A stretch of DNA of 64,000 bases, from the NCBI RefSeq assembly GCF_009831455.1, contig NZ_WOWO01000001.1, forward strand, positions 1 through 64,000, written 5' to 3'. The notes under the pieces were generated by a model. It had not been told where the DNA came from. It saw only the letters and a program-made list of their open reading frames with translations, and ran no database searches. The first letter of the stretch is position 1. The number at the start of each line of letters is the position of its first letter. A program made the position numbers and the translations under genes. This DNA is from Salinirussus salinus. Lineage in GTDB: Archaea; Halobacteriota; Halobacteria; Halobacteriales; Haloarculaceae. This document shows positions 18,947-40,964 of this stretch, in pieces.

Positions 18947-19444
18947 TCAGATTGCACCCTCTGTCGGTGTATCCTCCGGACCGAAGGGGGTACGGAACCA
19001 CTTCGAGAAGTCGAAGGTGTCGTCGATTTTCACAACTTCCCGCAGCGTCTGTGGACCGAGGACCGTCCCCACTCCACGCTCCGGGGCGACGAAACACACG
19101 CCGGGCCCGTTCTCTGTCTCAACTTTCGAGACACCGACGCCGGAGTATTCGCTCGCGATCCGGGTGACGGTGCCATCGTGGTCCGCGTCGATTTCGTACG
19201 CGGAGACCGGGTCCGTCAGCACTGCCTCGGGGGTGTCGACGAGTTCGCTCAGTCGGTCGCCAGTTCGCTGCCAGGCGATACTCTCCAGCAGGAGGGCGTC
19301 GAGCTTGATGGCCTCGTCGCCGGTTGCTATCTCGAGCCGTTCCCCTTTCGAGATGAGCTTGTGTAACGTCACTGGAGGGCCAGTGCCTGCCAGTTCCATC
19401 AGGTAGACCCGCTCCGCCGCGCCCGTCGCGATGTCATCGCTCAT
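18947..19444 (-). CDS. Uncharacterised third protein of Rieske oxygenase operon 1
   Basis: 165 residues, no signal peptide, membrane segment or motif that I recognise. It starts 2 nt after the beta-subunit stop, so it is translated with the oxygenase. It is clearly homologous to the protein at 38571-39044, which has the same position in the second Rieske operon. Shared blocks are a KLIS/KLVS segment followed by LDALLLES/LDAMLLEG and a WQ pair, a VLG segment about 30 residues from the end, and a terminal WFRTPFGPE/WFRTPTGPE. The product could be a small structural or assembly subunit, or a substrate-handling partner. Function unknown. Confidence 0.8.
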   Translation of the reverse strand: MSDDIATGAAERVYLMELAGTGPPVTLHKLISKGERLEIATGDEAIKLDALLLESIAWQRTGDRLSELVDTPEAVLTDPVSAYEIDADHDGTVTRIASEYSGVGVSKVETENGPGVCFVAPERGVGTVLGPQTLREVVKIDDTFDFSKWFRTPFGPEDTPTEGAI

Positions 19445-19446
19445 CG

Positions 19447-19980
19447 TTACAGGAGCGGGAGGGTGATGTTGTCGGTGCTGACGATGCTGTCGTCGAGATA
19501 CACCGTCCGGTCGGCGATGCGGAACCCGTCGTCGGTGTCACGGAGCGTCGTCTCCCGCTGTGCCGAGATGGTATCGTTGTCCGCCGTGTCGCCCTTGCTC
19601 CGGTAGACGTGCTGGTTATTTATGACGTCGTACCCCTCCTCGGTCTCGGTGACGTAGACGTTCCCCAGGACGTGGCGGACCCGGGACCGCGGGTTTTCCG
19701 CCCACGCGTACTCCTTTTTCAATCGGGTGACTCGTTCCCGGACCATCGTGTGCCCGTTCTTGATGTAGTAGCCATCCTCGCTGAACTCCGGGTGCTCCGT
19801 CCCCGGATGCGTGTAGCTCCGGATCGGAGCGCGAATGCTGAAATCCTCCGTGAGGAGCCCGAACCACTCCTCAAGGGCGAACCGGTCGAGCAGGTCCGCC
19901 TCGTAGTACAGAAACTGCTCGACCTCCCGTTGTGTCTCCGGCGAGACCCCGCCGGCGGACGGGGGGGTCATCTCATTCAT
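19447..19980 (-). CDS. Aromatic-ring-hydroxylating dioxygenase beta subunit 1 (SnoaL/NTF2-like)
   Basis: Small structural subunit of a Rieske non-heme iron oxygenase. Family features are EVEQFLYYEADLLD, EEWFGLLTEDFSI, a basic RVTRLKKEYAWAENPRSRVRH block near the middle and a C-terminal strand ending IADRTVYLDDSIV. Three close ATGs are possible (19989, 19980, 19971); 19980 overlaps the alpha-subunit stop in a coupled arrangement and was chosen. About 177 residues, typical of biphenyl or phenylpropionate dioxygenase beta subunits. Closely related to the gene at 39047-39586. Confidence 0.9.
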   Translation of the reverse strand: MNEMTPPSAGGVSPETQREVEQFLYYEADLLDRFALEEWFGLLTEDFSIRAPIRSYTHPGTEHPEFSEDGYYIKNGHTMVRERVTRLKKEYAWAENPRSRVRHVLGNVYVTETEEGYDVINNQHVYRSKGDTADNDTISAQRETTLRDTDDGFRIADRTVYLDDSIVSTDNITLPLL

Positions 19981-21373
19981 CGTTTCCATCCCCGTTCGGC
20001 TGCGGTCGTCCCTTGGACATCTGCCTGTACCAGGCCCGGAGGAGCCCCCGGGAGTGGCGCTCGTCGTAGTAGCCGCCGTACTCCGTGACCTCGGCCGGCC
20101 CGAACATCGGGTCCTCGGGGTCCTCCAGCCCGTCGCTCATCCCCTCCATGCCCTGTTGCATGTTCCCGGATGTCTTCCGTGTCTCCAGTGTGACCGACTT
20201 GCTCGACTCGGAGATCCCGTTCCAGATGGACAGGTCGTCGGATTCGAAGGCCCCGCCCGGGCTGAGGCTCTCCCAGCCGCGGTAGGACCGCTCCATGAAC
20301 TCCTCGTCGTCCTCCAGCTCCTTGGGCACCAGCCACCAGCTGATGACCTCGGTCTCGCCCGGACCCCTGGGTTGCCACTTCCGGATACAGGCCCACGGCC
20401 CGCCCCAGCCGCCGGCCTGGACCGCGTGGATGATCGTCGTGTTCGGGAAGATCGTCCCGAAGTAGTACAGCGACTGGCTGAACAGTTCGATCTGCTCCTC
20501 GCTCAACTCCGGGTTGAAGTGGTCCCGGAGCTTCTCCGGGTACCCCATCAGCGTGTCGGTGTCGTAGCTGACCATCAGGCTCAGTGACCCGGCGTAGTTC
20601 CCCTCCTCGTCTTCCGCGACCGCGAGGTGGTTGTACTTCCCTTTCCGCTCTTCCATCGGTGGCAGTTCTTCCCAGGGACCCCGGTCGATGTTCTCGGCCT
20701 CGAACCCCGCCTGGTGTGTCGTCAGCACGTGGTAGTTGTCGCCGGCGAAGTTGTCGGCGGAGGTCTTCCAGTCGTGGTCGGACTCCCACCGGTGAGCGTC
20801 GGTGACGACGGTCATCCCCTCCTCCGTGATGTCGAACATCACGTCGAGGTAGTAGGTGAGGTCCCCCAACGATTCCTCGAGCGGGGGACCCTCGTCGACG
20901 ATACGGCCGAAAATAAGTCCCTTGTAGGTGTCCAGATACGCCTCCTCCAGGCTGACGTCGTCGGTGTCCAGGGCCTGGTAGGACTCCCCCATGTGTGGCA
21001 TCCCCTGGAGCTCCCCGTTGTTCTTGTACGTCCAGCCGTGGTACGGACACCGGAAGTGTGAGGTGTTTCCCTTGTCGGCCGTGCAGAACTGGGCGCCCCG
21101 GTGCTGACAGCTGTCGAGAAACGCGTGTAACTCGCCGGTCTCGTCGAGTGTCAGGATGTAGGGGTCCTCGCCGATGTGTCGCCGCACGTAGTCCCCCGGC
21201 TCTGCGAACTCCGACGTGTGCCCGAGGTAGTTCCACGAACGCGTGAAGACCCGCCGGAGCTCCTCGTGGTATACCGACTCGTCGTTGAGGATCTTCAGCG
21301 GGAACTCCCCGTTCTCCAAGTCGGCGCCCGTCTGTTCGATCAGTCGCTCTGCGTGGGACAGCGATTTCGCCAT
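19973..21373 (-). CDS. Rieske aromatic-ring-hydroxylating oxygenase alpha subunit 1
   Basis: Catalytic subunit that uses O2 and electrons from a ferredoxin to hydroxylate a ring or other substrate. The N-terminal Rieske 2Fe-2S site is C89/H91 with C109/H112. The catalytic domain has N208, D212 bridging to the Rieske site, and iron ligands H215 and H220 in DNFAGDNYHVLTTH. The start is ATG 21373 (MAKSLS), because a TATTTAT-type box at 21397-21406 would place transcription initiation there; the frame extends further but inside the promoter. 466 residues. The alpha-beta composition points to the classic ring dioxygenase class, but demethylases and other substrates are possible. No reductase gene is adjacent; a Rieske ferredoxin is at 46907. 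Confidence 0.93.
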   Translation of the reverse strand: MAKSLSHAERLIEQTGADLENGEFPLKILNDESVYHEELRRVFTRSWNYLGHTSEFAEPGDYVRRHIGEDPYILTLDETGELHAFLDSCQHRGAQFCTADKGNTSHFRCPYHGWTYKNNGELQGMPHMGESYQALDTDDVSLEEAYLDTYKGLIFGRIVDEGPPLEESLGDLTYYLDVMFDITEEGMTVVTDAHRWESDHDWKTSADNFAGDNYHVLTTHQAGFEAENIDRGPWEELPPMEERKGKYNHLAVAEDEEGNYAGSLSLMVSYDTDTLMGYPEKLRDHFNPELSEEQIELFSQSLYYFGTIFPNTTIIHAVQAGGWGGPWACIRKWQPRGPGETEVISWWLVPKELEDDEEFMERSYRGWESLSPGGAFESDDLSIWNGISESSKSVTLETRKTSGNMQQGMEGMSDGLEDPEDPMFGPAEVTEYGGYYDERHSRGLLRAWYRQMSKGRPQPNGDGNDE

Positions 21374-21396
21374 GGCGAAACCAAGCTGGCAGATCA

Positions 21397-21406
21397 TAAA
21401 TAACTA
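21397..21406 (-). promoter_or_regulatory. TATA box of Rieske operon 1
   Basis: On the minus strand the sequence reads GTTATTTATG about 27 nt upstream of ATG 21373, consistent with a leaderless message for the alpha-beta-third-protein operon. Confidence 0.6.
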
Positions 21407-21624
21407 CGGCTTTTGTCAACATACTCTGCATCTCTTTCACAAAATTATTGATCAGATATCGACTACCTGGCCCCGGATCCGAACGAGTACAGTCCTGTCT
21501 CGGGCAGCCAGGTGCCGGTGCCCGGCCGCGCACAGCGTCTGTCCCGCCGGAGCGGCCCGGGGGCCCGCTGGCTCAGCTGGGCAGAGTCACAAATAAGCCC
21601 AGGTAAGAGACGGCCGGTCCCGCC

Positions 21625-24078
21625 TCAGAGTTCCCGCAACCCTTCCTCGGCGAGTTCGGGCAGAACCCGATGTGCCGCCAGCGGCAGGTCGTGAAACCGG
21701 ACCCCAGTGGCGTCACAGACCGCGTTGGCCACGGCGGCGCTCGTCGGAACGAGCGGGCACTCGCCGACACCCTTCTGCCCGTGAGAGGTTGTCGGGTCGG
21801 GGTTTTCGAGTTCCTCGATGTTCGTGATCATGGGCACGTCGAGCGCCGACGGGAGGTGGTAGTTCGCCATCGAACCGTTCAACAGGGCCCCGTCCTCGTC
21901 GTAGGCGTACTCCTCGTACAGCGTCTCCCCGAGCCCCTGAGCGATGGCACCCTGGACCTGCCCCTCGATGAGCTTGGGGTTGATCGCGTTCCCGATGTCC
22001 TCGCAGATCGCCACGTCGACGACGTCGACGTCGCCGGTTCTGGGGTCGACGTCGACGAGGACGGCCAGCGCGCCGAACGTGTAGCTGTGAGCGACGTTTC
22101 CCCGGCCGGTGTCCGGGTCGACGAACTCGACCTCCTGGCTCTGGTACTTGCCGCGGCCGACAAGCGAGATGCCTCCCTGAAGTGGCTCCGGCCGCTCCTC
22201 TTCAGGGCCGAGCGTCTCCGGGTTGCCGAGCATGGCGACGTTCGCCAGCTCCTCGATGGGCATGCTCGTCTCCGGGTCGGTGGTGTCGACGGCCGCTCCC
22301 TCGCTGAGTTCGATGTCCCCTGGATCGGTCCCGAGCAGGTGCCCAGCCACCGCTTTCAGGGTCTCCGCGAGGTCTTCGGCGGCCCGGGCGGCGGCGCTCC
22401 CGCCGATGATCGTCCCGCGGTCGGCCCAAACGCCCAGGCCCTCTGGGGTGGCGTCGGTGTCGCCACGGACGGCGTCGACTCGCTCCAGGGGGACACCGAG
22501 CGTGTCGGCGACCAGTTGGTTGATCCCGGTCTCGGTGCCCTGGCCGATACTGGCGACGGCCGTCAGCACCGTCACGTCGCCATTCCGATTCATCTTCACC
22601 ACGGCCTCGTCGAAGTCGCCGCCGGAGGCGCTTTTGTTCCCGCCGCGTTTCATGATGGTTCCCATCCCGACGCCGCGGAGCTTGCCGTCCCGGGTCCGCG
22701 TCCCGCCGCGGTGCTCGTCCCAGTTGATCATCTCCCGGGTCCGCTCGAGACACGTGACCATGTCCGCGTTGCGCCAGATGTGGCCCGCCGCCGAGCGCAT
22801 CGGCATCTCCTCCTGTCGCGGGGTGTTCCGGAGCCGGAGTTCGACGGCGTCCATGCCGAGTTCCTCGGCGGCCATCTCGACCAGCTGCTCGCGCATGAAG
22901 GTTACCTGCGGGTCGCCGAAGCCACGCACCGCGGTCGTCGGCATCAGGTTCGTGTAGACGACCGTCGCGTCCCAGTTCTGGTTCGGGATTTTGTACGGCC
23001 CCTGTCCGCAGTTCGTCGAGGAGTACGCGACGGCGACGCCGTATGCGGCACACGCACCGGTGTCCTGGACGAGGTCGACGTCGATGCCGACGATGTCACC
23101 GTCCTCGGTGACGCCGAGCCGCCCCGACAGCTGTTCGGAGGCGCGGCCGCGGCCGGCCTGGAACTCCTCGCGGCGGTCGAGGACGTGTTTGACCGGCCGC
23201 TCGGTTGCCATCGAGAGCAGCGCCGCGCAGACCTCGAAGGGGTACGGGTCGAGCTTGATACCGAAGCCACCGCCGACGTCGGGGAGTCTGCAGACGATGT
23301 CGCCCTGGTCGAGCCCCTCGATCACCTGCGCGAGTTCGACCGAGAGGAGGTGGGGCATCTGCGTCGAGGAGGTGAGCTCGAGTTTCCCGCTGCCGGGGTT
23401 GTACTCGGCGATACAGCCGTGTGGCTCGAGCGGAGCGGGCGTCGTCCGGTTGGTCTCGAAACTCCCCTCGACGACGACGTCGGCGTCGGCCATCGGGTCC
23501 TCGTGGTCGCCGGCGACGACCCGGCCGGTCCAGGCCACGTTCCCGTCGGTGTCGGCCTCCGGGTCGGCGTTCAGGTCCGGGTGGACGACCGGCGCACCCT
23601 CCGCGAGAGCCTCGTCGACCGACGTGACCGCGTCCACGGGCGCGTACTCGACTTCGACCAGATCCGCGGCTTCGCGTGCCGTCTCCCGGGCGTCGGCGAG
23701 GACGACCGCCACTTCCTGGCCGGCGTAGACCACCCGCTCGTCGGCGAGCACCACCTCGTCGTCGAGCATGTAGCCGTACGGCTCGTCGACGTACTCCGCG
23801 ATGTCCGCGTGCGTCCAGACGAGTTCGACGCCGGGATGGGCCTCGGCGGCGGCCGTATCGATGTCGACGAGCCGGGCGCTCGCGTGCTCGCTGCGCACGA
23901 AGTACGCGTGGAGCATGTCCTGGGTTGCGATGTCGTCGACGTACTCCCCGTGGCCAGTGACAAAGCGCCTGCCGTCGTAGCTGTTGGCGCGCTCGCCGAC
24001 CCACTCCCCGTCGCGCTCCCCGGCCTCACGCTCCTCGGCGTCCGACACCCCGGCCGGGCGGGACTGCTGTTTGCTCAC
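21625..24078 (-). CDS. Xanthine-dehydrogenase-family molybdopterin-binding large subunit
   Basis: Molybdenum hydroxylase subunit that inserts a water-derived oxygen into a C-H bond of an N-heterocycle or aldehyde. 817 residues. Landmarks are an N-terminal ald_xan_dh domain (RFVTGHGEYVDDI, GVELVWTHADI), cofactor-binding DVGGGFGIK, TTAVRGFGDPQ, ASIGQGTETGINQ and the active-site glutamate in GQKGVGECPLVP. The active-site loop is AVRGFGDPQ, not the AYxCSFR of true CO dehydrogenase, so CO oxidation is unlikely. The start is a GTG. The small FAD and 2Fe-2S subunits are not adjacent but at 28743-30127 on the opposite strand. A perfect 14-bp palindrome lies in the promoter at 24145. Confidence 0.92.
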   Translation of the reverse strand: MSKQQSRPAGVSDAEEREAGERDGEWVGERANSYDGRRFVTGHGEYVDDIATQDMLHAYFVRSEHASARLVDIDTAAAEAHPGVELVWTHADIAEYVDEPYGYMLDDEVVLADERVVYAGQEVAVVLADARETAREAADLVEVEYAPVDAVTSVDEALAEGAPVVHPDLNADPEADTDGNVAWTGRVVAGDHEDPMADADVVVEGSFETNRTTPAPLEPHGCIAEYNPGSGKLELTSSTQMPHLLSVELAQVIEGLDQGDIVCRLPDVGGGFGIKLDPYPFEVCAALLSMATERPVKHVLDRREEFQAGRGRASEQLSGRLGVTEDGDIVGIDVDLVQDTGACAAYGVAVAYSSTNCGQGPYKIPNQNWDATVVYTNLMPTTAVRGFGDPQVTFMREQLVEMAAEELGMDAVELRLRNTPRQEEMPMRSAAGHIWRNADMVTCLERTREMINWDEHRGGTRTRDGKLRGVGMGTIMKRGGNKSASGGDFDEAVVKMNRNGDVTVLTAVASIGQGTETGINQLVADTLGVPLERVDAVRGDTDATPEGLGVWADRGTIIGGSAAARAAEDLAETLKAVAGHLLGTDPGDIELSEGAAVDTTDPETSMPIEELANVAMLGNPETLGPEEERPEPLQGGISLVGRGKYQSQEVEFVDPDTGRGNVAHSYTFGALAVLVDVDPRTGDVDVVDVAICEDIGNAINPKLIEGQVQGAIAQGLGETLYEEYAYDEDGALLNGSMANYHLPSALDVPMITNIEELENPDPTTSHGQKGVGECPLVPTSAAVANAVCDATGVRFHDLPLAAHRVLPELAEEGLREL

Positions 24079-24144
24079 GGTACCACCACTGGCTGGGTCG
24101 CAGGCGGACCCCAGGGTGACTGCTGCATTGTCCTACGACCGTGT

Positions 24145-24158
24145 GGTCCGGCCGGACC
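24145..24158. promoter_or_regulatory. Perfect palindrome in the molybdo-hydroxylase promoter (operator candidate)
   Basis: GGTCCGGCCGGACC is a perfect 14-bp palindrome. It directly follows a minus-strand TATA-like AAGTATTATTCC (24159-24170), so it would lie between the TATA box and the transcription start of the large-subunit gene, the classic place for a repressor. Confidence 0.45.
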
Positions 24159-24256
24159 GGAATAATACTTGCGCGTGTCATCCCCTGTCGGTGGGGACTG
24201 GAGCGGCCCACCGCGATTCTTGCCCACACCGACCGCGAGACCGACTGACGCCGGCA

Positions 24257-25804
24257 TCAGTACCGCCGCTCGACCCAGTCGGTCTCGCGCTCGAACGCGT
24301 CGGCTGCGGCGAGGACGACCTCCTCGTCGAAGTGACTCCCCACGAGCATCAGCCCGACCGGCAACCCCGTCTCGTTTCTGCCACAGGGCACCGAGATGGC
24401 GGGGTGACCGGTCATGTCGAACGGCATCGTGTTCCGGGTCCGCCCTTTCTTTCCCTGGGCCCGGTTGACCGCCTCCTTGCGGCCGATGTCCTCCTCGAGC
24501 TCGAACGCGGTCATCGGTGTGGTCGGCATCGCCAGCACGTCGAACGTCTCTAGCTTGTCGTCGTACGCGTCCCGTAGCTTCGGACGGAGGTTCGACGCCT
24601 TCCCGTGGTACCGGCCGTAGTACTCCTGTTTGAGGTACTGTCCCAGGATGCACTTCAGCTTCGCCGTCGGCGCGAACTCCTCGGCCTGGGCCCGGCGGGC
24701 CTTGCCGAAGGCCGCCGCGAGGTCGGTGTCGTAGTGGCCGTCCGCGAAGTAGCCGGTGCCGTCGGCGTCCCACATGACCGCCGTCTCCTCGTTCTCGACG
24801 GCGAGCCAGACGAAGAAGCCGTCGACGTGCCACGGGATCGAGACCTCCTCCGCGGTCGCCCCGAGGGCCTCGAGTTCGGCGACGGCGTCCCGGACCCCGG
24901 CGTTGACTGCCTCCTCGCCGCCCTCGAACTCGAAGGCCTCGCGCACCACGCCGACCTGCAGCCCGTCGACCCCTTCGCCGACCGCCCCGAGGTAATCCCC
25001 GACCTCGACCTCGCCCTGGCGGGGGTCTTTCGGGTCTTTCCCCGCGATCGCCTGCAAGGTTCGTGCGGCGTCCGGCACCGTCCCCGCCATGGGGCCGACG
25101 TGGTCGAAGGAGTGGCCCAGCGGGGCGACGCCCCGAAAGGAGACCAGCCCGTGCGTCGGTTTGAAGCCGACACAGCCACTCCAGGAGGCCGGCGTCCGGA
25201 GCGAGCCGGCCTGGTCGGTACCGATGGCCACGTCGACCATGTCGGTCGCGACGGCGACCGCAGACCCGCTCGAGGACCCCCCCGAGAGGTAGCCGTCGTC
25301 GAAGGGGTTCAACACGGGTCCGAACGCCGACATCTCCCCGCTGCCCGAGACGGCCATCTCGCTCATGTTCGTCTTCGCGGTGACCGTCGCGCCCTCTTCG
25401 AGGAGTCGCTCGACCACCGCGGCGTCGTAGGCCGGCTGGTACCCCTCCAGAACCTTCGAGCCGTTGGTCATCTCGACGCCCGCGACGGCGACGTTGTCCT
25501 TGACGCCGACCTCGTAGCCGTCCAGCAGCCCGCCGTCTTCGGACTCGACGTGACAGACCGTGACCACCGCGTTCTTCGGGTCTTCCTCGGCGGTCGCCCG
25601 GTAGCCGGGGTCCCGGCGGGCGGGGACACGGTCCATGCTCCGGTCGGAGAGCTCGTCGATCCGCTTGCAGTACCCCATCTTCTCGGCGGCGAGGTCCCGG
25701 AAGTCCTCGACCTCCTCCTCGCTCAGGTTCATGTGGTACTGTTCGGCGATGTCGCGGACGTCCTCACGCGTGGGTGGCCTGAGGGTTGGGGGCAGATGAG
25801 TCAC
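24257..25804 (-). CDS. Amidase-signature family amidase, copy 1
   Basis: Hydrolyses a carboxamide to acid plus ammonia. The Ser-cisSer-Lys triad regions are visible: VKDNVAVAGVEMTNGS with the lysine, GSGEMSAFGPVLNP and the glycine-serine stretch YLSGGSSSGSAVAVATDMVD carrying both serines and the nucleophile region GTDQAGSLRTPASW. 515 residues from GTG 25804, which is favoured because a TTTATC element near 25831-25838 lies 27 nt upstream and the start then matches the second amidase. Divergent from the ureohydrolase gene at 25977. Could be a GatA-like stand-alone amidase; substrate unknown. Confidence 0.9.
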   Translation of the reverse strand: MTHLPPTLRPPTREDVRDIAEQYHMNLSEEEVEDFRDLAAEKMGYCKRIDELSDRSMDRVPARRDPGYRATAEEDPKNAVVTVCHVESEDGGLLDGYEVGVKDNVAVAGVEMTNGSKVLEGYQPAYDAAVVERLLEEGATVTAKTNMSEMAVSGSGEMSAFGPVLNPFDDGYLSGGSSSGSAVAVATDMVDVAIGTDQAGSLRTPASWSGCVGFKPTHGLVSFRGVAPLGHSFDHVGPMAGTVPDAARTLQAIAGKDPKDPRQGEVEVGDYLGAVGEGVDGLQVGVVREAFEFEGGEEAVNAGVRDAVAELEALGATAEEVSIPWHVDGFFVWLAVENEETAVMWDADGTGYFADGHYDTDLAAAFGKARRAQAEEFAPTAKLKCILGQYLKQEYYGRYHGKASNLRPKLRDAYDDKLETFDVLAMPTTPMTAFELEEDIGRKEAVNRAQGKKGRTRNTMPFDMTGHPAISVPCGRNETGLPVGLMLVGSHFDEEVVLAAADAFERETDWVERRY

Positions 25805-25976
25805 ACCCCTACCTGAGAACAACCAGTTGATAAATCCTTGCGTCGGGGCCGATATCGCGGGACGAAACGGAAGCCGAGACTCTCCGTGACCCTCCCAGCG
25901 GTGCTGTCACGGCGAGACTCCGAAGCGTTACCTCTGCGCACAGACTTTTGCCGGTGCCACCCGAATCCGGAGTCGA

Positions 25977-26990: not shown

Positions 26991-27024
26991 CGAACGCGAC
27001 TGAGGTGACAGCGCCGCTCCAGTC

Positions 27025-28521: not shown

Positions 28522-28742
28522 GGGCTTTCTGTGTCCGTCGCCGGCATAGTGGTTGGGGTGGCTCCGCCGGCCACCCGGCTGTCCCCGCTACCCCCCGGCT
28601 CCGGCCTTCGCCAGACGCGTGTCCTGAGAGGGCTTGCTGGCAACGTTTGCATTCTCGGCAACGCTTACGCCGGAATCGGTCGGGACGAGCCAGTGCGGGA
28701 GGGTCAAATATAGGTACCCCCGGAACGAGAAACGGATGTCCG
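28522..28742. other. Divergent promoter region between amidase 2 and the molybdo-hydroxylase FAD gene
   Basis: About 220 nt with no gene. An AAATATAG element at 28705-28712 is a plausible TATA box for the rightward FAD-subunit gene, with a short leader. No strong palindrome was seen. Confidence 0.5.
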
Positions 28743-29609
28743 ATGCCTAGCCTGAAACACGCCGCTCCGGCGACAGTGGAGGGTGCGTGCTCGCTGCTTG
28801 CGGAACACGGCGACGAGGCCGCAGTCCTCTCCGGTGGACAGAGCCTCGTCCAGGAGGTCCGCCAGCACGCCGCATCCTTCGACGTCGTCGTCGACATCAA
28901 CGGGATCGAGAACCAGTCCTACATCGAACGCGATGGGGACCAACTTCGGTTCGGCTGTCTGGTCAGACACGCCGATATCGAACACTCCGAGCTGGTCGCC
29001 GAGGCGAACCCGACACTCGCAGACGCGGCGGGGTCGATCGGCGACGTCCAGGTGCGCAACCGCGGCACCTTCTGTGGCGCGGTCGCCCAGGCGGAACCGG
29101 CCGGCGACCCACCGACAGTCCTCACCCTGTTCGACGCCGACGTCGTGGTGGTCGGCACCGGCGGCGAGCGCGTCGTCAGCGGACGGGAGTTCTACGAGGC
29201 CCCCCGCGAGACCGCGCTCCGGCCCGACGAACTGGTCCGGGAACTCCGGTTCCCGATTCTCGGCGATGGGACGGGCGCTGCATACGAGAAGTGGACGCCG
29301 GCCGAGGGGTCGTACCCGGTCGCCGCGGTCGGCGCGCTGGTCGAACTCGAGGAGGGGACCGTCTCCGACGCCCGTCTGGTCACCGGCGCGCTCGAGGGCG
29401 GTCCAACGCCGATGCCCGGGGCGGCCGCGGGGCTGGTCGGCGAGGAACCGACCGACGACTCTCGGACTGTGGCCGCGCGGACGCTCGGCGAGAACGCCGA
29501 GCCCGAGGCGGACTTCGAAGGGTCGACGGAATTCAAGTCCGAACTGGCGGCGACGATGGCCAAGGACGCCCTCGACACCGCCGTCGAGCGGGCGCGGGGG
29601 GCGGAGTGA
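28743..29609 (+). CDS. Molybdo-hydroxylase FAD-binding medium subunit (CoxM/XdhB-like)
   Basis: Carries FAD and passes electrons from the 2Fe-2S subunit to an acceptor in a xanthine-dehydrogenase-family complex. FAD-PCMH motifs are VLSGGQSLV in the N-terminal subdomain and GSIGDVQVRNRGTFCGAVAQAEPAGD in the second, followed by the CO_deh_flav_C domain. 288 residues. ATG 28743 gives the family-typical start MPSLKHAAPATVEGA. Its stop is 2 nt before the 2Fe-2S subunit gene. The catalytic large subunit is presumably the separate gene at 21625-24078, the only one in the window. Confidence 0.9.
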   Translation: MPSLKHAAPATVEGACSLLAEHGDEAAVLSGGQSLVQEVRQHAASFDVVVDINGIENQSYIERDGDQLRFGCLVRHADIEHSELVAEANPTLADAAGSIGDVQVRNRGTFCGAVAQAEPAGDPPTVLTLFDADVVVVGTGGERVVSGREFYEAPRETALRPDELVRELRFPILGDGTGAAYEKWTPAEGSYPVAAVGALVELEEGTVSDARLVTGALEGGPTPMPGAAAGLVGEEPTDDSRTVAARTLGENAEPEADFEGSTEFKSELAATMAKDALDTAVERARGAE

Positions 29610-29611
29610 CG

Positions 29612-30127
29612 ATGGCCAGTGCGGACGAGCCGCCTGTCCCCGAATCGGAGGTCTCGGTCAGCCTCACGCTGAACGGGAGCGAGGTGACCCGGACTGTCGA
29701 GGCCGGGACGCTACTCTCGACGTTTCTCCGCGAGGGGGAGTTTCTGACCAGCGTCCACCGGGGCTGTGAGAGCACGCGCTGTGGCGCCTGTACCGTGTTG
29801 CTCGACGGCGACCCGGTGAAATCGTGCAACGTGCTCGCCGTCCGGGCCGACGGGAAGGAGCTCACGACGGTCGAGGGGCTGGCCGACGACGACGGGAGTC
29901 TCCACCCCGTCCAGCAGTCCTTCTGGGACACCCACGGGCTGCAGTGTGGCTACTGCACTCCGGGGATGGTGCTCAACGCCGTCTCGCTACTCGAAGAGAA
30001 CGACGACCCCGGCGTCAACGAGATCCGGGAACGGATCTCCGGAAACATCTGCCGGTGTACGGGGTACACGAAGATCGTCGAGAGCGTCAAGAACGCAGCA
30101 GCCGACGCAGACACGGACGGGAAGTAG
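29612..30127 (+). CDS. Molybdo-hydroxylase 2Fe-2S small subunit (CoxS/XdhC-type ferredoxin)
   Basis: Electron-transfer subunit with two 2Fe-2S clusters. Plant-type cluster cysteines are C52, C57, C60 and C72 (GCESTRCGAC then SC). The second cluster is C112, C115, C147 and C149 (QCGYCTPGM and ICRCTGY). 171 residues from ATG 29612, immediately after the FAD gene, with a short acidic N-terminal extension before the ferredoxin domain typical of haloarchaea. A longer frame running back to 28787 is a shadow inside the FAD gene. It completes the L-M-S set with the distant large subunit. Confidence 0.93.
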   Translation: MASADEPPVPESEVSVSLTLNGSEVTRTVEAGTLLSTFLREGEFLTSVHRGCESTRCGACTVLLDGDPVKSCNVLAVRADGKELTTVEGLADDDGSLHPVQQSFWDTHGLQCGYCTPGMVLNAVSLLEENDDPGVNEIRERISGNICRCTGYTKIVESVKNAAADADTDGK

Positions 30128-30186
30128 CTGAGGACGTCAGGGAGAGTGGGATATTCGAGGTGCCGGTCCCATGCTCCCCGGACGAC

Positions 30187-31203: not shown

Positions 31204-31359
31204 ACACGACCCACCGGCTGACGGACACATGTACCTTTCGAGGCCCTGTCATCGTTCGGGTGACGGGTGGACGATCACTCGTTCAATAACGCAATCGGGT
31301 AGACAGTACCGGGGTTATTTGCGCGTCAGGTTCGCCAATCGGCAATAATTACGCACAAA

Positions 31360-31367
31360 ATTTAAAA
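31360..31367 (+). promoter_or_regulatory. TATA box for the BMP-family binding-protein gene
   Basis: ATTTAAAA lies about 34 nt upstream of ATG 31398, giving a leader of only a few nucleotides. Confidence 0.5.
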
Positions 31368-31397
31368 GGGGTGACCCATCACTGATAGACGGAACGA

Positions 31398-32558: not shown

Positions 32559-32678
32559 GGCGACCGGCGCGGTCGACTCACCTGTTTGCGGTCCGAACGC
32601 CCACGAGCGGCCGGTCCGTATCGCGCGTCCACCGCGCCCGGCGGCAGGTTTATGCCCGGAAGCGGCAAACTGGGGGCG

Positions 32679-34106: not shown

Positions 34107-34119
34107 ACAGCGCCGGTGT

Positions 34120-36309
34120 CTACAGCGAGAGCCGGCTGACCAGCGCCGGGTCCTCCCGCTTTGCCACCTCGGTGTCGAGCAGCGTCCCACACTCCGGGCA
34201 GAGGAACTTCCGGAGGCAGTACTCCGCGGAACCGCCGGTCGCCGTGCCCGCCGCCGAGAGCGACTCCTCGGCGACGGCCACCTCGCCCTTCCAGTGGTCG
34301 TCCGCGCGACCGACGGGGATACCACAGCCCTCACACGCGGCGTAGGGGACGTCCTCGCCGTCGACCTCGACGGCTACGTTCGCGCCCAGCCGGTAGGGGG
34401 TGGACTCGGTGTCCTCGGGAGCAGCAGCGGCGGCGTCCGCCTCCGCCGGCAGGTCCGCCGCCTCGAGGCGCTCGCGGTAGCGGTCCTCGCGGGCCTGCTG
34501 GGCCGACCCGGTGATGGTGCCCTCGTCGTCGACGGGAACGCAGTAGACCTCCCGGGCCGTCTCCGGGGCGACCTTCCCTTCTGCGACGTCCTCGGCGACC
34601 GACTCGGGCTCCCGGTCCAGCGGGTCGCCGTACCCGCCGCTGCCGGGCAGCCGGACGTGGAACGCGTCGTCGTCCCCGAGGGTGTCGACCCCCCAGCGGA
34701 CGTGTTCGGGCTCCGGCAGTGACTCCTCGGTCGGCGGGAAGGGGCCGTCCCCGGAGAGGTCGGCGTCCCGGTAGGTGGCGTAGTCGACGTTCGCACCCGG
34801 GTAGCCGCCGAAGACTCCCGTCGAGTGGGGGAGGTCGATCCCCCGTCCCATGGTCACGACGTCGAGCTTCTCGAAGTCCTCCTCGGCAGCGGGTGTGACG
34901 GCGAACTCGTGGCCGAGCCCGCCGCGGTGTTCGCCGGCACCGCCGGAGTCCGCGACGAACCGGCGGTAGAGGTACAGCAGCGGGAGCACCGCCTCGTGGC
35001 GCTCGGCGTTGCCCCACCGCGCGACGATGTTGACCACCTCGCCGCCGAGGTCGACGCCGTCGTCGAAGGCCCGCGCGCCGCCGGCGCCGGCGAAGGTGTC
35101 GGTCAGCGCCTCGACCTGCGTGCCGTCCCCGTGGTCGATCTCCAAGGCGATGTGACAGTGGGCGCCGTGCCAGACGCCGGTCGCGCGGTCGGCGTAGGCC
35201 TCGCTGGCGCCGAGTAACTTCGAGACCGCGAGCGTCGACAGCGAGTTACACATCTGGAGTGTTCCGATCGTCGCGATGGAGATCGGTGCCGGTCGCTCGG
35301 CGTTGACGATCGTCCCCTTCGGGGCGTCCACGTCGATGGCACGGAAGATCCCGTCGTTCCAGGTCATGTCGTGACAGAGCAGCGGCAACAGGGGCGCGAT
35401 GACGCCACCAACCGTCCCGATCTCCGTGCAGTTGAACCCCACCTCGCTCTGTTCGTCGGTGCCGGCGAAATCGAACCGCAGCGAGTCGCCCTCCTTCTCG
35501 AGGGCGAGCTGGACGGTAAACGAACGGTCCTCGCTGGCCGAATCGAGGTACTGGCGTTCCTCCCACCGGCCGTCCGGGAGTTCCCGCAGCCGCTTGCGGA
35601 GTTTCTTCTCGGACTGCTCGATGAGCTGTTCGCCGACGTACTCGACGGTCTCCGGGGAGTACTCGTCCATCAGCCCCTGGAGGCGGTCCTTGGCGACGTT
35701 GTTGGCGGCGATCTCCGAGCGGAGGTCGAGTTCGACCATCCCCGGGTCACGGCTCATGTTCAGGATCGTCTCCAGAACGTCGTCGCGCATCTCTCCACCT
35801 TCGATCAGCTTCATCCCCGGCGTCTGGAACCCCTCGTGGAAGATGGTCGTCGCGTTCGGCGAGAACCCTCCAGGGTCGACGGCGCCGATGTCGGCCACGT
35901 GGACGAAACTCGCCGAGAACGCCTGGAGTTCGCCCTCGTAGAAGATCGGACAGATGATGTAGACGTCCGGCGGGTGTAGCGCCGCCGTGTACGGGTCGTT
36001 GAGGATGAACATGTCGCCCTCCTCGATGTCGCCCTCGAAGCGGTCGATGATGTGTTTGGTCGCCTCCGAGGCACCCAGGTAGTGGTGCAGAAATCCCACC
36101 CCGCCGGTCAGCAGCGAGCCGTCTTTGGTGTACAGCGCGACCATCAGGTCGTGGCCCTCGTTGGTGTTCGGGGCGCCGGAGACGCGCTTGAGCGCCTCGA
36201 CGGCCTCGTCGGTGACCCGCACCAGCCGGTGTTTGATGATCTGGAAGGTGACCGGGTCCAGCCCCTCCACGCTCAGGTCGATGTCGTCGGTCGGTTCAGT
36301 GTCACTCAT
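34120..36309 (-). CDS. Hydantoinase B/acetone-carboxylase-alpha-like subunit with C-terminal zinc-ribbon extension
   Basis: One half of an ATP-dependent HyuAB-type complex (hydantoinase, oxoprolinase, caprolactamase, acetone or acetophenone carboxylase). 729 residues, longer than a standalone HyuB. The core is typical (DPVTFQIIKHRLVRVTDEA, IEEGDMFILNDPY, FVHVADIG, GGLGHEF). The last 100 residues add a domain with two CxxC pairs (CEGCG and CPECG) separated by a conserved WKGEV segment, resembling the acetone carboxylase gamma subunit. This raises the chance that the complex is a carboxylase rather than a hydantoinase. Its ATG overlaps the hyuA-like stop by eight bases. Confidence 0.85.
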   Translation of the reverse strand: MSDTEPTDDIDLSVEGLDPVTFQIIKHRLVRVTDEAVEALKRVSGAPNTNEGHDLMVALYTKDGSLLTGGVGFLHHYLGASEATKHIIDRFEGDIEEGDMFILNDPYTAALHPPDVYIICPIFYEGELQAFSASFVHVADIGAVDPGGFSPNATTIFHEGFQTPGMKLIEGGEMRDDVLETILNMSRDPGMVELDLRSEIAANNVAKDRLQGLMDEYSPETVEYVGEQLIEQSEKKLRKRLRELPDGRWEERQYLDSASEDRSFTVQLALEKEGDSLRFDFAGTDEQSEVGFNCTEIGTVGGVIAPLLPLLCHDMTWNDGIFRAIDVDAPKGTIVNAERPAPISIATIGTLQMCNSLSTLAVSKLLGASEAYADRATGVWHGAHCHIALEIDHGDGTQVEALTDTFAGAGGARAFDDGVDLGGEVVNIVARWGNAERHEAVLPLLYLYRRFVADSGGAGEHRGGLGHEFAVTPAAEEDFEKLDVVTMGRGIDLPHSTGVFGGYPGANVDYATYRDADLSGDGPFPPTEESLPEPEHVRWGVDTLGDDDAFHVRLPGSGGYGDPLDREPESVAEDVAEGKVAPETAREVYCVPVDDEGTITGSAQQAREDRYRERLEAADLPAEADAAAAAPEDTESTPYRLGANVAVEVDGEDVPYAACEGCGIPVGRADDHWKGEVAVAEESLSAAGTATGGSAEYCLRKFLCPECGTLLDTEVAKREDPALVSRLSL

Positions 36310-38413
36310 CGTTGCCCTCCTCGATACCGATCCGGATGTTCTTGTACCGGTCCATCCGCGCCACGTCGCCGGGGTTGACGACGATGGTCGTCACCGGCGT
36401 GAGGATGACCCCTGGCTCCGTTATCTCGTCGCCGGGCGTCAGCTCCTCGAAATCGTACAGGCTCGCATCGACCCGCCCGCCCGCCGCCTCGAAGTGCATC
36501 TCCTTGCTCCCCAGGCGGGCGCGGGTCGGGTTCGACTCGCTGACCGGGTGTTCCTTCAGGTCAGGCGTCGTCAGCGGCCCGACGCCGCGGACGCGGAATT
36601 CGGTCATCTCGATGCCGCCCTCCTTGAACGCCGACCCCTCGCCGTACCGCTGCTCGTACAGCTCCTCGAACCGGTCGACCGTCGCGTCGATGTCGGCCTG
36701 CGTGAGCTGGCCCGCCGCCTCGACGGGCGTCAGGAGTTCGTGGACCTGGCGCTGGTAGCGCATGCTGATAGAGCGCTCCAGGCGGATCTCCTCCGCGTCG
36801 AACCCCTCGGATGCGAGCTTCTCCCGCGCCGTCGCCGAGAGGTCGCCGAACACCTCGTTGACCTCGTCGACGCCGAAGGGCGGTTCCATCCCCTTGACGT
36901 CCAGGTGCTCGTGGGTCACGTCCGTCGAGAGCAGGCCAAGCGCGCTGTTGACCGACGCCGTGTGGGGCACCAGTACCTCCGGAATATCCAGCTCGCGGGC
37001 GTAGGAGGCCGCGTGCATCCCCGCGGCACCGCCGATGGCGACCAGCGTGAACTTCCGGGGGTCGATGCCCTTCTCGACGGTGGTCTCACGCAGCAGGTCC
37101 GCGATGATCGAGTTGATCAGCTTGTAGATGTCCGCAGCAGCTTCCTCGGTGGACTTGCCCAGCGGGCCTGCGACCTGCTCGTCGAAGACCTCGTACGCCC
37201 GGTCGGCGTCCATCTCCTTGCCCCCGCCCAGGAAGTACTCCGGCGCGAAATACCCCTGGACGAGGTCCACGTCGGTTACCGTCGGCCGGTCGCCCCCCCG
37301 GCCGTAACAGGCCGGCCCGGGGTCCGAGCCGGCACTCTCCGGGCCGACCTGCGGGACGTTCGTCCCCTCCTCCAGCGAGATGATGCTCCCGCCCGCGACG
37401 GCGATGGAGTGGATGTCCCGTTTCGGGAACTGGTAGTGGTGGCGGCCCACCATCGGCTCGTCGGCGTACTCGATCCGGTTGTCATCGATGACGCCGACCT
37501 TGAACGTCGTCCCGCCCATGTCCGTCGAGATGATGTTGTCGACCCCGCGCCTGTTGGCGACGAACTGGCTGCCCAGCAGGCCGCCGACGGGTCCCGACTC
37601 CATCAGCCCGACCGGTCGCTCGATGGCGTCCTGTCGAGTCACGAGCCCGCCGTGAGAGAACATCAACAGCAGGAGCCCGTCGAAGCCGTACTCCGTGAGC
37701 GTCGTCTGCAGGTTCGTGAGATACTCCTCCGCCGTCGGCCCCAGATAGGCGTTGAGCACTGTCGTCGACGTGCGCTCGTACTCGCCCATCGTCGGCGAGA
37801 CGTCGCTTGACACCGAGACGTACAGGTCGGGATAGTGCTCGGCGAGCAGGTCTTTCACCCGCCGTTCGTGTGCCGGCGAGCGAAACGACCAGAGCAGACA
37901 CGTCGCGACGGACTCGACTCCGTCCTCGACGAGTCCGTCGACGGCCTCCAGCACCTCCTGGTCGTCGAGTTCCTCGACGACCTGGTCGCGGTAGGCCCGC
38001 TCGGAGAGCCCCTCGACCCGCGTGCGCGGGATCAGCGGGTCCGGCTTGTCCGAGTTGATGATGTCTTTGACCTGCTCGAACGGGAGCCCGGACCACCGGC
38101 CGTACCCCCCGCGGGTAGCGTGCAGCGTCTCCTCGAAGCCCGCGGTCGTCAGCAACCCGGTTTCGGCTCCCTCGCGCTCGAACAGGGCGTTCTCCCCGAC
38201 AGACGTCGCGTGGAGAAACAGGTCGGTGTCCCCGAGCAGTTCCTCGAGACCGACCTCCATGTTCCCGGTGGCGTCGGACAGGGAGTCGAAGATGCCCTGC
38301 GAGAAGTCGGGGTAGGTCGTCAGGTCCTTCCCGATGGTTACACGGCCCGATTCGTCCATGACTGTCGAATCTGTACACGTGCCGCCGATATCGGTCCCGA
38401 TTCGGTAGCCCAT
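36302..38413 (-). CDS. Hydantoinase A/acetone-carboxylase-beta-like subunit
   Basis: ATP-binding half of the HyuAB-type complex, of the actin/hexokinase fold. 703 residues from ATG 38413 (MGYRIGTDIGGTCTDS). Nucleotide-binding motifs are DIGGTCTD, LMESGPVGG, STDMGGTTFKVG and AIGGAAGMHA, with the family PGPACYGRGGDRPT segment. The frame continues upstream but this ATG gives the canonical start. It is co-transcribed with the hyuB-like gene. Known relatives open hydantoins or lactams, or phosphorylate ketones for carboxylation; which applies here cannot be decided from sequence. Confidence 0.88.
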   Translation of the reverse strand: MGYRIGTDIGGTCTDSTVMDESGRVTIGKDLTTYPDFSQGIFDSLSDATGNMEVGLEELLGDTDLFLHATSVGENALFEREGAETGLLTTAGFEETLHATRGGYGRWSGLPFEQVKDIINSDKPDPLIPRTRVEGLSERAYRDQVVEELDDQEVLEAVDGLVEDGVESVATCLLWSFRSPAHERRVKDLLAEHYPDLYVSVSSDVSPTMGEYERTSTTVLNAYLGPTAEEYLTNLQTTLTEYGFDGLLLLMFSHGGLVTRQDAIERPVGLMESGPVGGLLGSQFVANRRGVDNIISTDMGGTTFKVGVIDDNRIEYADEPMVGRHHYQFPKRDIHSIAVAGGSIISLEEGTNVPQVGPESAGSDPGPACYGRGGDRPTVTDVDLVQGYFAPEYFLGGGKEMDADRAYEVFDEQVAGPLGKSTEEAAADIYKLINSIIADLLRETTVEKGIDPRKFTLVAIGGAAGMHAASYARELDIPEVLVPHTASVNSALGLLSTDVTHEHLDVKGMEPPFGVDEVNEVFGDLSATAREKLASEGFDAEEIRLERSISMRYQRQVHELLTPVEAAGQLTQADIDATVDRFEELYEQRYGEGSAFKEGGIEMTEFRVRGVGPLTTPDLKEHPVSESNPTRARLGSKEMHFEAAGGRVDASLYDFEELTPGDEITEPGVILTPVTTIVVNPGDVARMDRYKNIRIGIEEGNDE

Positions 38414-38570
38414 GAGGCTTGTCGTGCGTGTCGAAGTAACGCTCTCGCATAACTCTGTGGATTCCTGCACGTTTGGCAAGAATTGGTTGGGAAGTGCGGA
38501 CATGTGGCCGGTTGTGGGGTGGTCCCTCCGGTCGGGTCCGTGGCCCGGACACGTCCCAACCGCAACGGGA

Positions 38571-39044
38571 TTACAGCGGCTGTTCGGGGCCGGTCGGCGT
38601 CCGGAACCACCGGGACAGCGCGGCCGTGTCGTCGACCGTCGTCAGCGCTGCCAGCGTCGGGAGCCCGAGCACCGAGACGCCCTTCTCCGAAGCGATCTGG
38701 AATGCCTCCGTGTCTCCGGTCCCGACCGTCCCTACCTGGACCGTCGTGTACTCGTTGGCGACCGTGAACCCCTCGGCCGGTTCGACCGGCCGCCCGCGAT
38801 AGGAGCTGGCTTCGTCGGCCAGCACTGGGCCGGGTTCCTCGACGAACTCGGCGAGGTCGCTGGCGTCCTCCTGCCAGGAAACTCCCTCCAGCAACATGGC
38901 GTCGAGCCGGAGCTGGTCCTCACCGTGTTCGAGCAAGAGCAACTCCCCCATCGAGACGAGCTTCGTCGCGATTACCGTCCGGCTGCCGTCCCCGAGTGCT
39001 ATCGCGTGAACCCGGGCGGACCCGGGCGTGTGTCTCGGCGGCAT
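38571..39044 (-). CDS. Uncharacterised third protein of Rieske oxygenase operon 2
   Basis: 157 residues, paralog of the protein at 18947-19444. Shared landmarks are the KLVSMGE region, LDAMLLEG followed by a WQ pair, VLGLPTL near the end and the terminal WFRTPTGPE. It starts 2 nt after the beta-subunit stop, exactly as in operon 1. No signal peptide, membrane helix, cysteine cluster or known domain. The retention of position, spacing and motifs in both operons argues that it acts with the oxygenase. Function unknown. Confidence 0.8.
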   Translation of the reverse strand: MPPRHTPGSARVHAIALGDGSRTVIATKLVSMGELLLLEHGEDQLRLDAMLLEGVSWQEDASDLAEFVEEPGPVLADEASSYRGRPVEPAEGFTVANEYTTVQVGTVGTGDTEAFQIASEKGVSVLGLPTLAALTTVDDTAALSRWFRTPTGPEQPL

Positions 39045-39046
39045 GG

Positions 39047-39586
39047 TCAGAGTAACACGATGGTGAGATTCTTCAGGTCGATCACGCTGTCGTCGAAGTA
39101 CACCACGCGGTCGGCGATCTTGAGGTCGTCGCCGACCCGTCTGAGGGTGGTCTCCCGCTGTGCGGAGAGCGTCTCGCTATCGGTGGCGTCGCCGTAACTC
39201 CGGTAGACCTGCTGGTTGTTGAGGACGGTGTACTCCTCGCCCTCGACCTCCGTCACGCGGACGTTACCGATGACGTGACGCACACGCGAGCGCGGGTTCT
39301 CCGCCCAGGCGTACTCCTTGCCAAGCCGGGTCACCCGCTCTCTCAGGATGTCGTACTCGTTGTAGAGGTAGTAGCCGTCCTCGCTGAACTCCGGCTGGTC
39401 GGTCCCCGGGTGTGTGTGTCGCCGGATCGGCGCAGTGATCCTGATGTCCTCGGTGAGCAACTCCAGCCACTCCTCCAGCCGGAAGCTGTCAAGCAACTCC
39501 GCTTCGGTGTAGAGTAGCTGTTCGACCTCGTGTTGGAGGGCTGGCGAAACCGTCGTCTCGGTGTCGACGGGTTCGCTCTCACTCAT
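39047..39586 (-). CDS. Aromatic-ring-hydroxylating dioxygenase beta subunit 2 (SnoaL/NTF2-like)
   Basis: Structural partner of alpha subunit 2. Has the same family pattern as beta subunit 1: LQHEVEQLLYTEAELLDSF, EEWLELLTEDIRI, an identical EYAWAENPRSRVRHV block and a C-terminal KIADRVVYFDDSVI strand. 179 residues from ATG 39586, which overlaps the alpha stop by eight bases; a further start at 39601 is less likely. Strong similarity to the gene at 19447-19980 shows that the whole three-gene operon was duplicated. Confidence 0.9.
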   Translation of the reverse strand: MSESEPVDTETTVSPALQHEVEQLLYTEAELLDSFRLEEWLELLTEDIRITAPIRRHTHPGTDQPEFSEDGYYLYNEYDILRERVTRLGKEYAWAENPRSRVRHVIGNVRVTEVEGEEYTVLNNQQVYRSYGDATDSETLSAQRETTLRRVGDDLKIADRVVYFDDSVIDLKNLTIVLL

Positions 39587-40964
39587 CGGTTTCGCTCCCA
39601 TCCAGCTCGGGCCGCCCCATGGACATGTACCTGTGCCAGTGTTTCAGGTGGTTTCGGGCGCCGGCTTCGCTGTAGTAGCCGCCGAAGCGCTGGACCTCTG
39701 CCGGCCCGAACAGCGGGTCATCAACCGTCTCGAGGTCGTCGCTCATCCCCTTCAGGCCCTGCTCCATGTTGCCGACCGTCTCGTTGAGTTCCAGGGTGAC
39801 CGAGTCGGTGGAGTCTGCGATCCCGGCCCAGACCGACAGGTCGTCGGCCTCGAACGTCCCGCCAGGACTCGTCGTCTCGAATCCGTGGTAGGCTCGCTCC
39901 ATGAACTCCTCGTCGTCGGCCAGCTCCTTGGGGACGAGCCACCAGCTCATGATCTCCGTCTCGCTCGGGCCGCGGGGGACGAACGTCCGGATCTGGACCC
40001 AGGGACCGCCCCAGCCGCCGCCCGAGATGGCGTGGTTGATGTTGGTGTTGGGGTACAGCGTCGAGAAGAAGTAGACCGACTGGCTGAACAGCTCGCGCTG
40101 TTTGCCGGTCAGGTCGGAGTTGTAGTGGTCGGTGACCTCGTCGGGATATCCCATGTGGGTGTCCGTGTCGTAGTTGACCAGAAAGCTCAGCGAGGCGTTT
40201 TCGGTCACGGCGAGGTGATTGTAGTCGCCTTTCCGCTCCTGTGCCGAGGGGAGGGTCTCCCAGGGACCGGCTTCCCCCAGGTCTTCGGACTCGAAGACCG
40301 CCTGGTGGGTCGCGAGGACGTGGTAGTTGTCGCCGCCGAAGTTCTGTGCGGGGGTCTTCCAGTTGTGGGGCGCGACCGAGCGGTGCGGGTCGGCCACGAC
40401 CGTCATCCCCTCCTCGGTGAGGTCGACGAGCAGGTCGAGATACCAGGTGAAGTCCCCGAGATACTCCTCCAGGGAGGGGCCCTCGTCGACCAGCCGGCCG
40501 AAGATGAGTCCGTTGTAGCGTTCGACGGTCGCCTTCTCGAGTCTGATCTCGTCGGGGTCCAGGTCCTGGTATGACTCCTCCTTGTAGGGCATCCCCTGGA
40601 GCTCGCCGTCGTTCCGGTAGGTCCAGCCGTGGTAGGGGCACCGGAAGTGGGTGGTGTTTCCCTTGTCAGCGGTGCAGAACTGGGCGCCCCGGTGTTTGCA
40701 GGCGTCGAGCAGCGCGTGGTACTCCCCGTCACGGTCGTAGGTCAGGATGTACGGGTCACCCGCGATGTACCGGCGGGCGTAGTCCCCCGGCTCCTGGAAT
40801 TCGGAGGTGTGGCCGATGTAGTTCCACGTGCGACTGAACAACCGCCGCAGCTCCTCCTCGTAGATGGCGTCGTCGCTGTATATCTGGAACGGGAATTTCC
40901 CCTTTCCGATCTTTTCGCCGGTTTGCTCGATTAACTGTTCGGTTTTATCCGCCGACTGGGCCAT
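39579..40964 (-). CDS. Rieske aromatic-ring-hydroxylating oxygenase alpha subunit 2
   Basis: Catalytic subunit of a second Rieske oxygenase. Rieske ligands are C89, H91, C109 and H112; iron ligands H215 and H220 follow N208 and D212 in NFGGDNYHVLATH. These positions are numerically identical to alpha subunit 1, so the two align without gaps through the catalytic core. 461 residues from ATG 40964, 28 nt downstream of a CATATATG box. Its catalytic machinery is intact. The divergence between the two copies suggests two substrates or two successive steps. No dedicated reductase is adjacent. Confidence 0.93.
   Translation of the reverse strand: MAQSADKTEQLIEQTGEKIGKGKFPFQIYSDDAIYEEELRRLFSRTWNYIGHTSEFQEPGDYARRYIAGDPYILTYDRDGEYHALLDACKHRGAQFCTADKGNTTHFRCPYHGWTYRNDGELQGMPYKEESYQDLDPDEIRLEKATVERYNGLIFGRLVDEGPSLEEYLGDFTWYLDLLVDLTEEGMTVVADPHRSVAPHNWKTPAQNFGGDNYHVLATHQAVFESEDLGEAGPWETLPSAQERKGDYNHLAVTENASLSFLVNYDTDTHMGYPDEVTDHYNSDLTGKQRELFSQSVYFFSTLYPNTNINHAISGGGWGGPWVQIRTFVPRGPSETEIMSWWLVPKELADDEEFMERAYHGFETTSPGGTFEADDLSVWAGIADSTDSVTLELNETVGNMEQGLKGMSDDLETVDDPLFGPAEVQRFGGYYSEAGARNHLKHWHRYMSMGRPELDGSETDE

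Follow-up and report, generated by a model that had tools for sequence, protein, structure and literature searches.

Two Rieske oxygenase operons share a small third gene

The window, by which we mean the whole 64,000-nucleotide stretch of DNA analysed here (positions 1 to 64,000 of contig NZ_WOWO01000001.1 from the haloarchaeon Salinirussus salinus), contains two operons for Rieske ring-hydroxylating oxygenases. Both lie on the minus strand and, as read from the sequence, both encode an alpha subunit, a beta subunit and a small third protein in that order; the third protein is the subject of this study. The genes are listed below, with lengths in amino acids (aa) and with support from a profile hidden Markov model (HMM) or an AlphaFold2 (AF2) model and its predicted local distance difference test (pLDDT) where applicable.

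19973..21373, minus strand: Rieske oxygenase alpha, operon 1, 466 aa (PF00355, E 3e-19; PF00848, E 9e-14)
19447..19980, minus strand: Rieske oxygenase beta, operon 1, from the inner ATG; outer ATG at 19989 (PF00866, E 6e-27)
18947..19444, minus strand: third protein, operon 1, 165 aa, two-domain PhtU-like (39% identity to the operon 2 third protein; HMM; AF2 pLDDT 85.7)
39579..40964, minus strand: Rieske oxygenase alpha, operon 2, 461 aa (PF00355, E 2e-19; PF00848, E 1e-12)
39047..39586, minus strand: Rieske oxygenase beta, operon 2, from the inner ATG; outer ATG at 39601 (PF00866, E 1e-29)
38571..39044, minus strand: third protein, operon 2, 157 aa, two-domain PhtU-like (single-domain HMM)

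In both operons the alpha and beta genes overlap by 8 bases, given the inner beta ATGs (19980 and 39586), and beta is separated from the third gene by 2 nt. An alternative ATG for the operon 1 alpha, at 21397 and 24 bases upstream, is also in the open frame. Residues 89, 91, 109, 112, 215 and 220 of both alphas are C, H, C, H, H and H, and D212, the usual bridging Asp, is common to the two; with the CxH...CxxH motif and 2-His iron site in alpha and a Ring_hydroxyl_B beta, both operons encode alpha-beta Rieske ring-hydroxylating oxygenases. The third iron ligand of the operon 1 alpha is expected in a conserved E-x-D-D-L motif near residue 379. A first-pass annotation, made by a model from the letters alone, had given this gene order with its coordinates, junctions and ligand numbers, all of which held, although it did not list the third iron ligand. 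It had also called the beta proteins SnoaL-like, and SnoaL_4 does match them, but more weakly than PF00866 (Ring_hydroxyl_B), which is the best family.

Identity between the operons was 63% for alpha, 67% for beta and 39% for the third protein (E 6e-28), so the third proteins are homologous, as had been proposed. On the alpha tree the two operons are sisters with a Shimodaira-Hasegawa-like approximate likelihood ratio test (SH-aLRT) value of 97. The two operons are thus a lineage-specific duplication, with a matching layout that is not due to chance, and the recent acquisition of two different operons is rejected. A genome search found no further full alpha and no further third gene beyond the two window operons.

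The third protein is a two-domain variant of the PhtU family

The window third proteins gave no sequence match in Pfam, NCBIfam or the PDB, and Pfam and NCBIfam searches with 25 family members and with 7 bacterial members gave nothing above chance. The single-domain PhtU-family HMM matched each window protein twice, at residues 32-74 and 86-159 in operon 1 (iE 6e-8 and 2e-8) and at residues 43-76 and 91-155 in operon 2 (iE 3e-5 and 4e-7), and by the same HMM nearly every haloarchaeal third protein has two domains. Judged by these matches, the window third protein is a tandem-duplicated, fused form of a single-domain protein of about 65-110 aa. Its lengths of 165 and 157 aa, with two repeats, lie outside that size range, and we therefore file it as a fused variant and not as PhtU itself. 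Two haloarchaeal operons (L134 and L059) keep a single-domain third protein, and their alphas branch near the base of the haloarchaeal group on the alpha tree; combined with the two-domain HMM pattern, this suggests as the simplest history that a single-domain ancestor was duplicated and fused in haloarchaea. The ratio of nonsynonymous to synonymous substitution rates (dN/dS) of the third genes was 0.05-0.33 in close pairs, indicating purifying selection and ruling out a spurious open reading frame (ORF). Fusion of the third protein to alpha or beta was looked for in the loci read, and none was seen.

PhtU takes its name from actinobacterial phthalate operons, in which phtU is an ORF downstream of phtAb described as 'function unknown' (PMC10134610, PMC10434107, PMC4964388). 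The earlier statement that the third protein matches nothing known is thus correct for the sequence databases but overlooks this literature; what is new here is a two-domain variant of an already named, unexplained family. The window proteins resemble PhtU in a homologous domain (NEF..TRNGxRL..LELEALTWQ), detected by HMM, and in their place directly downstream of beta. They differ in having two fused domains where PhtU has one, in their 2-nt gaps, in an identity of only roughly 30%, and in lying in an apparent N-heterocycle gene island, whereas PhtU lies in a phthalate operon. From the phthalate-operon setting of dihydrodiol dehydrogenase, ferredoxin, reductase and decarboxylase, tblastn found only a distant short-chain dehydrogenase/reductase in the window.

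Deposited records added to published accounts of the family. Strain MBM, the strain of PMC10134610, has two full family copies, both following beta, in both loci read. That paper states that the Arthrobacter keyseri cluster is without phtU; the A. keyseri pRE1 record contains a phtU-like unnamed ORF between beta and ferredoxin (L203, 5929-6267), and the statement is corrected accordingly. In Geobacillus JF8 two ORFs are reported upstream of nahB (PMC7023095), and the record holds a third small ORF between nahAd and nahB that the paper does not mention.

The pht, pad and phd enzymes are type V oxygenases (PMC2358900). PhtAaAb, PadAaAb and PhdAB, with Rhodococcus NarAaAb as a further relative, have the same alpha-beta build with a Rieske cluster and mononuclear iron as the window enzymes, and those of A. 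keyseri, Rhodococcus jostii RHA1, Rhodococcus opacus B4 and Geobacillus JF8 are accompanied by the third gene. The haloarchaeal alphas differ in forming a separate branch, with about 35-40% identity to the pht/pad alphas. No type V [3Fe-4S] ferredoxin or glutathione reductase (GR)-type reductase was found within the window by tblastn, and carriers could be encoded elsewhere in the genome. In pht/pad operons the third gene stands in addition to ferredoxin and reductase, and the first-pass view that it occupies their place is not general.

Linkage of the third gene to beta in Halobacteriales

A profile of the two window third proteins was searched in 293 Halobacteriales genomes, and a deeper profile was run afterwards. 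The first found relatives in 24 genomes, nearly all adjoined by alpha and beta, and the deeper profile found 29 places. A reverse search with PF00866 returned 29 beta genes in 23 genomes, of which 26 have the third gene directly downstream. The first-pass annotation had proposed counting how often the third gene follows a beta gene in archaea; this count bears out the linkage, and homologs lying mostly away from Rieske genes were not seen. Nearly every match sits in a Rieske cluster, and a third gene scattered elsewhere in genomes was rejected; one weak first-round match (G247, L056), with no Rieske genes there, was lost with the better profile and dropped as spurious. The profile search found no third gene with the single-component GbcA-like Rieske alphas of the same genomes. 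Where genomes hold at least two such operons (G000, G291, G197, G222, G309 and G336), one third copy per operon is usual, a pattern better suited to a separate partner for each oxygenase than to a single factor serving several.

A further one of the 29 beta genes, in genome G022 (L044), is inverted away from alpha, and the third gene is still beside alpha, in convergent orientation; here a natural rearrangement has parted beta and the third gene. Two haloarchaeal alphas, in L039 (8171-9688) and L053 (8423-9964), carry a Cys/Gly-rich C-terminal tail of repeated 'GCGS' units (e.g. GGGCGSAKTDGCGSAKTDGCGS) that is absent from most other alphas.

The family extends across archaea and several bacterial phyla

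Scanning the third-protein alignment against contigs of 84,980 species gave 80 loci, mostly from Actinobacteria and including two from Thermoplasmata. A beta gene lies directly upstream on the same strand in 79/79 loci with upstream sequence; the 80th (L131, Nitrososphaerales) begins at a contig edge. In 63 of these 79 a 4-base overlap joins the beta stop to the start of the third gene. Single-domain members are widespread among Actinobacteria and are also present in Bacillota, Thermus, Thermomicrobium, Thermoplasmata and Nitrososphaerales, so that the 'haloarchaeal class' of the first-pass annotation was drawn too narrowly.

Plasmid records with the third gene include the phthalate operons of A. 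keyseri 12B and R. jostii RHA1, those of Geobacillus JF8 and Thermus oshimai and, in R. opacus B4, a naphthalene-type operon; Thermomicrobium gave a further match to the family. There were no proteobacterial plasmids among the organisms listed for the plasmid-record matches. Within 121 genomes from the order of Rhodococcus globerulus, all 19 third copies were no more than 8 kb from a beta gene and most adjoined it directly. Only a minority of the 56 beta genes carry the third gene, which thus marks a branch of the alpha-beta oxygenases. In a few records (plasmid records H53 and H59, from Thermus thermophilus and R. opacus) the small third protein is annotated as 'dihydrodiol dehydrogenase'. 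It is far too short for that enzyme, and the label is evidently wrong and transferred; the true dehydrogenase is often the next gene.

Predicted fold and an unlikely regulatory role

AF2 modelled the operon 1 third protein as two beta4-alpha repeats (pLDDT 85.7, predicted template modelling score (pTM) 0.80), which map to the gene as follows.

19268..19414, minus strand: N-terminal beta4-alpha repeat, operon 1 third protein, about residues 11-59 (AF2 strands 11-18, 25-31, 35-41 and 44-49; helix 50-57)
18986..19165, minus strand: C-terminal beta4-alpha repeat and conserved W-F-x-T-P-x-G-P tail, operon 1 third protein, about residues 94-153 (AF2 strands 94-97, 102-110, 113-120 and 125-129; helices 131-138 and 144-150)

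A single domain modelled alone again gave the beta4-alpha unit (pLDDT 76, pTM 0.55), with a lower confidence that would fit a need for a partner. Fold searches placed Pur-alpha, Borrelia PurA, PC4 and MoSub1 at the top, with Whirly also among the closest. The best structural match had a Z score of 5.8 (5fgo, 3.3 A over 60 residues), and PUR/PC4/Sub1 entries filled the top ranks, although by the tool's own warning a structural Z under 8 may reflect a common arrangement; Foldseek E values were 0.002 (two-domain model) and 0.2 (single domain). In the whole-model VIA-align list unrelated beta proteins at Z under 4 dominate, and only its PUR rows were used. On these moderate scores, the third protein is predicted to consist of two beta4-alpha repeats nearest to the PC4/PUR/Whirly fold. 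The likeness lies in the predicted topology and in the tandem arrangement, which recalls Pur-alpha repeats I-II; unlike PC4/PUR/Whirly proteins, the third protein has no detectable sequence similarity to them, a core that is not basic, moderate structural scores and an enzyme-operon context.

These closest folds are the reason to consider a regulatory role, in which the third protein would bind nucleic acid and control its own operon. However, the structural scores are moderate, sequence comparison linked the protein to neither the PC4 nor the PurA family, and many of these clusters already contain separate regulators (IclR, GntR). In addition, across 66 single-domain members, almost all of them from bacteria, the core had a median isoelectric point of 5.7 and a net charge of -1. 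The single-stranded DNA-binding members of the PC4/PUR/Whirly fold differ from such a slightly acidic core. Nucleic-acid binding is therefore not favoured, the fold likeness was not taken as evidence of it, and we consider a regulator unlikely.

A proposed dedicated partner of the oxygenase

The strict linkage to beta, the translational coupling and the single copy per operon together indicate that the third protein partners the oxygenase itself. Its gene is strictly conserved next to alpha-beta Rieske genes, with no homologs found away from them, and the accessory function suggested by the first-pass annotation is in that sense well founded. Our preferred proposal, whose chances we put at about even, is that the third protein serves the alpha-beta oxygenase as a dedicated non-catalytic partner, acting as a dimeric assembly or stabilisation factor. 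The one-domain bacterial PhtU should act as a dimer, and the chain of most haloarchaea, with two copies fused, would be a built-in dimer. Made just after beta from the same mRNA, the third protein would bind alpha and/or beta and so help the alpha3beta3 complex to assemble, load its clusters or remain stable, while staying outside the purified catalytic core. The analysis establishes the sequence family, its duplication, the linkage of the genes and the purifying selection, and the fold is a prediction; the dimerisation, the binding and the assembly role are inferred.

Several observations weigh against this proposal. The PC4/PUR/Whirly fold class is best known for nucleic-acid binding, and the third protein evolves faster than alpha. 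Two of the 29 haloarchaeal alpha-beta pairs have no third gene nearby. For one (G223:C33), none of the six frames of 14 kb contains the gene. The other (G273:C7) lacks its own third gene and has a single-domain copy about 10.5 kb away (L122, 17419-17694, 80 aa), on the opposite strand and downstream of a major facilitator superfamily (MFS) transporter gene, which is possibly an unlinked partner of that pair. The structures of Rhodococcus naphthalene dioxygenase (2b1x) and of a phthalate 3,4-dioxygenase that is all but identical to the RHA1 pad enzyme (9jp5) contain alpha and beta chains only, and both oxygenases stem from operons carrying the third gene. Finally, Hydrogenibacillus N12 NarAaAb and NarA2B2, whose operons may or may not carry the third gene, were active in E. 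coli with only alpha, beta and foreign electron carriers (PMC11176777). The solved alpha-beta-only structures and the N12 activity make an obligate catalytic subunit unlikely and speak for a factor in assembly or stabilisation, a subunit that can dissociate, or an aid to docking; the word 'obligate' in the first-pass annotation is doubtful for the same structures and the two unaccompanied pairs.

Next in rank after the regulator, and also unlikely, is an electron-transfer adaptor that sits on the oxygenase and aids ferredoxin docking. Such an adaptor would explain the co-occurrence in bacteria with [3Fe-4S]-ferredoxin (type V) oxygenases, and it fits the report that JF8 NahAcAd by itself showed no activity in E. 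coli (PMC7023095), where the third ORF lies between nahAd and nahB. Yet the third gene is also present in operons without a nearby ferredoxin (Mycolicibacter, haloarchaea and the window), and the N12 enzymes were active when given foreign ferredoxins but no third protein (PMC11176777). Least likely of the three is a third subunit that is stable in the mature oxygenase yet able to dissociate, and that recombinant preparations have lacked for want of the cloned gene: coupling to beta by the 4-base overlap (63/79) and one copy per operon would agree with it, but no family chain occurs in the PDB although two oxygenases from such operons have been solved.

Returning to the assembly factor, a wider form of the proposal is that a large branch of alpha-beta Rieske oxygenases, bacterial and archaeal, has an overlooked conserved component in the PhtU family. 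Its PC4/PUR-fold dimer would have been recruited as a dedicated assembly or control factor, which most recombinant work would then have left out. We hold this tentatively, at a little short of even chances. The haloarchaeal fusion suggests that the dimer is the working unit. This Rieske branch attacks phthalates, polycyclic aromatics and, probably, N-heterocycles, and its enzymes are difficult to produce by expression. A missing ingredient may be this small protein, encoded alongside them, which archaea and several bacterial phyla have kept but which was uncloned or unmentioned in the published work consulted, such as that on Geobacillus JF8 (PMC7023095); a component of a much-studied enzyme system may thus have escaped attention.

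Gene neighbourhood and likely substrates

Operon 1 belongs to a minus-strand run with a molybdenum hydroxylase, an XdhC-type protein and a MocA-like protein, and operon 2 runs into hydantoinase A and B genes.

21625..24078, minus strand: molybdenum hydroxylase large subunit, directly upstream of operon 1 (PF20256, PF02738, PF01315)
17094..18239, minus strand: XdhC-type molybdenum hydroxylase maturation factor, downstream of operon 1 (PF13478, PF02625)
16477..17094, minus strand: MobA-like nucleoside triphosphate (NTP) transferase, MocA-like (PF12804)
36302..38503, minus strand: hydantoinase/oxoprolinase A, starting 67 bp after the operon 2 third gene (PF01968, PF05378, PF19278)
34120..36309, minus strand: hydantoinase/oxoprolinase B, overlapping hydantoinase A by 8 bp (PF02538, E 3e-118)

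Hydantoinase A is probably co-transcribed with operon 2. The molybdenum hydroxylase, hydantoinase, amidase, arginase-family, amidohydrolase and transporter neighbours suggest that the substrates of the two oxygenases are probably N-heterocycles. Both operons lie inside an island (15194-45607) that resembles one for N-heterocycle or nucleobase catabolism. Its other genes encode a molybdenum hydroxylase Fe-S subunit (28787-30127), two amidases, an arginase-family protein, an amidohydrolase, a luciferase-like monooxygenase, a PnrA-like binding protein and two permeases.

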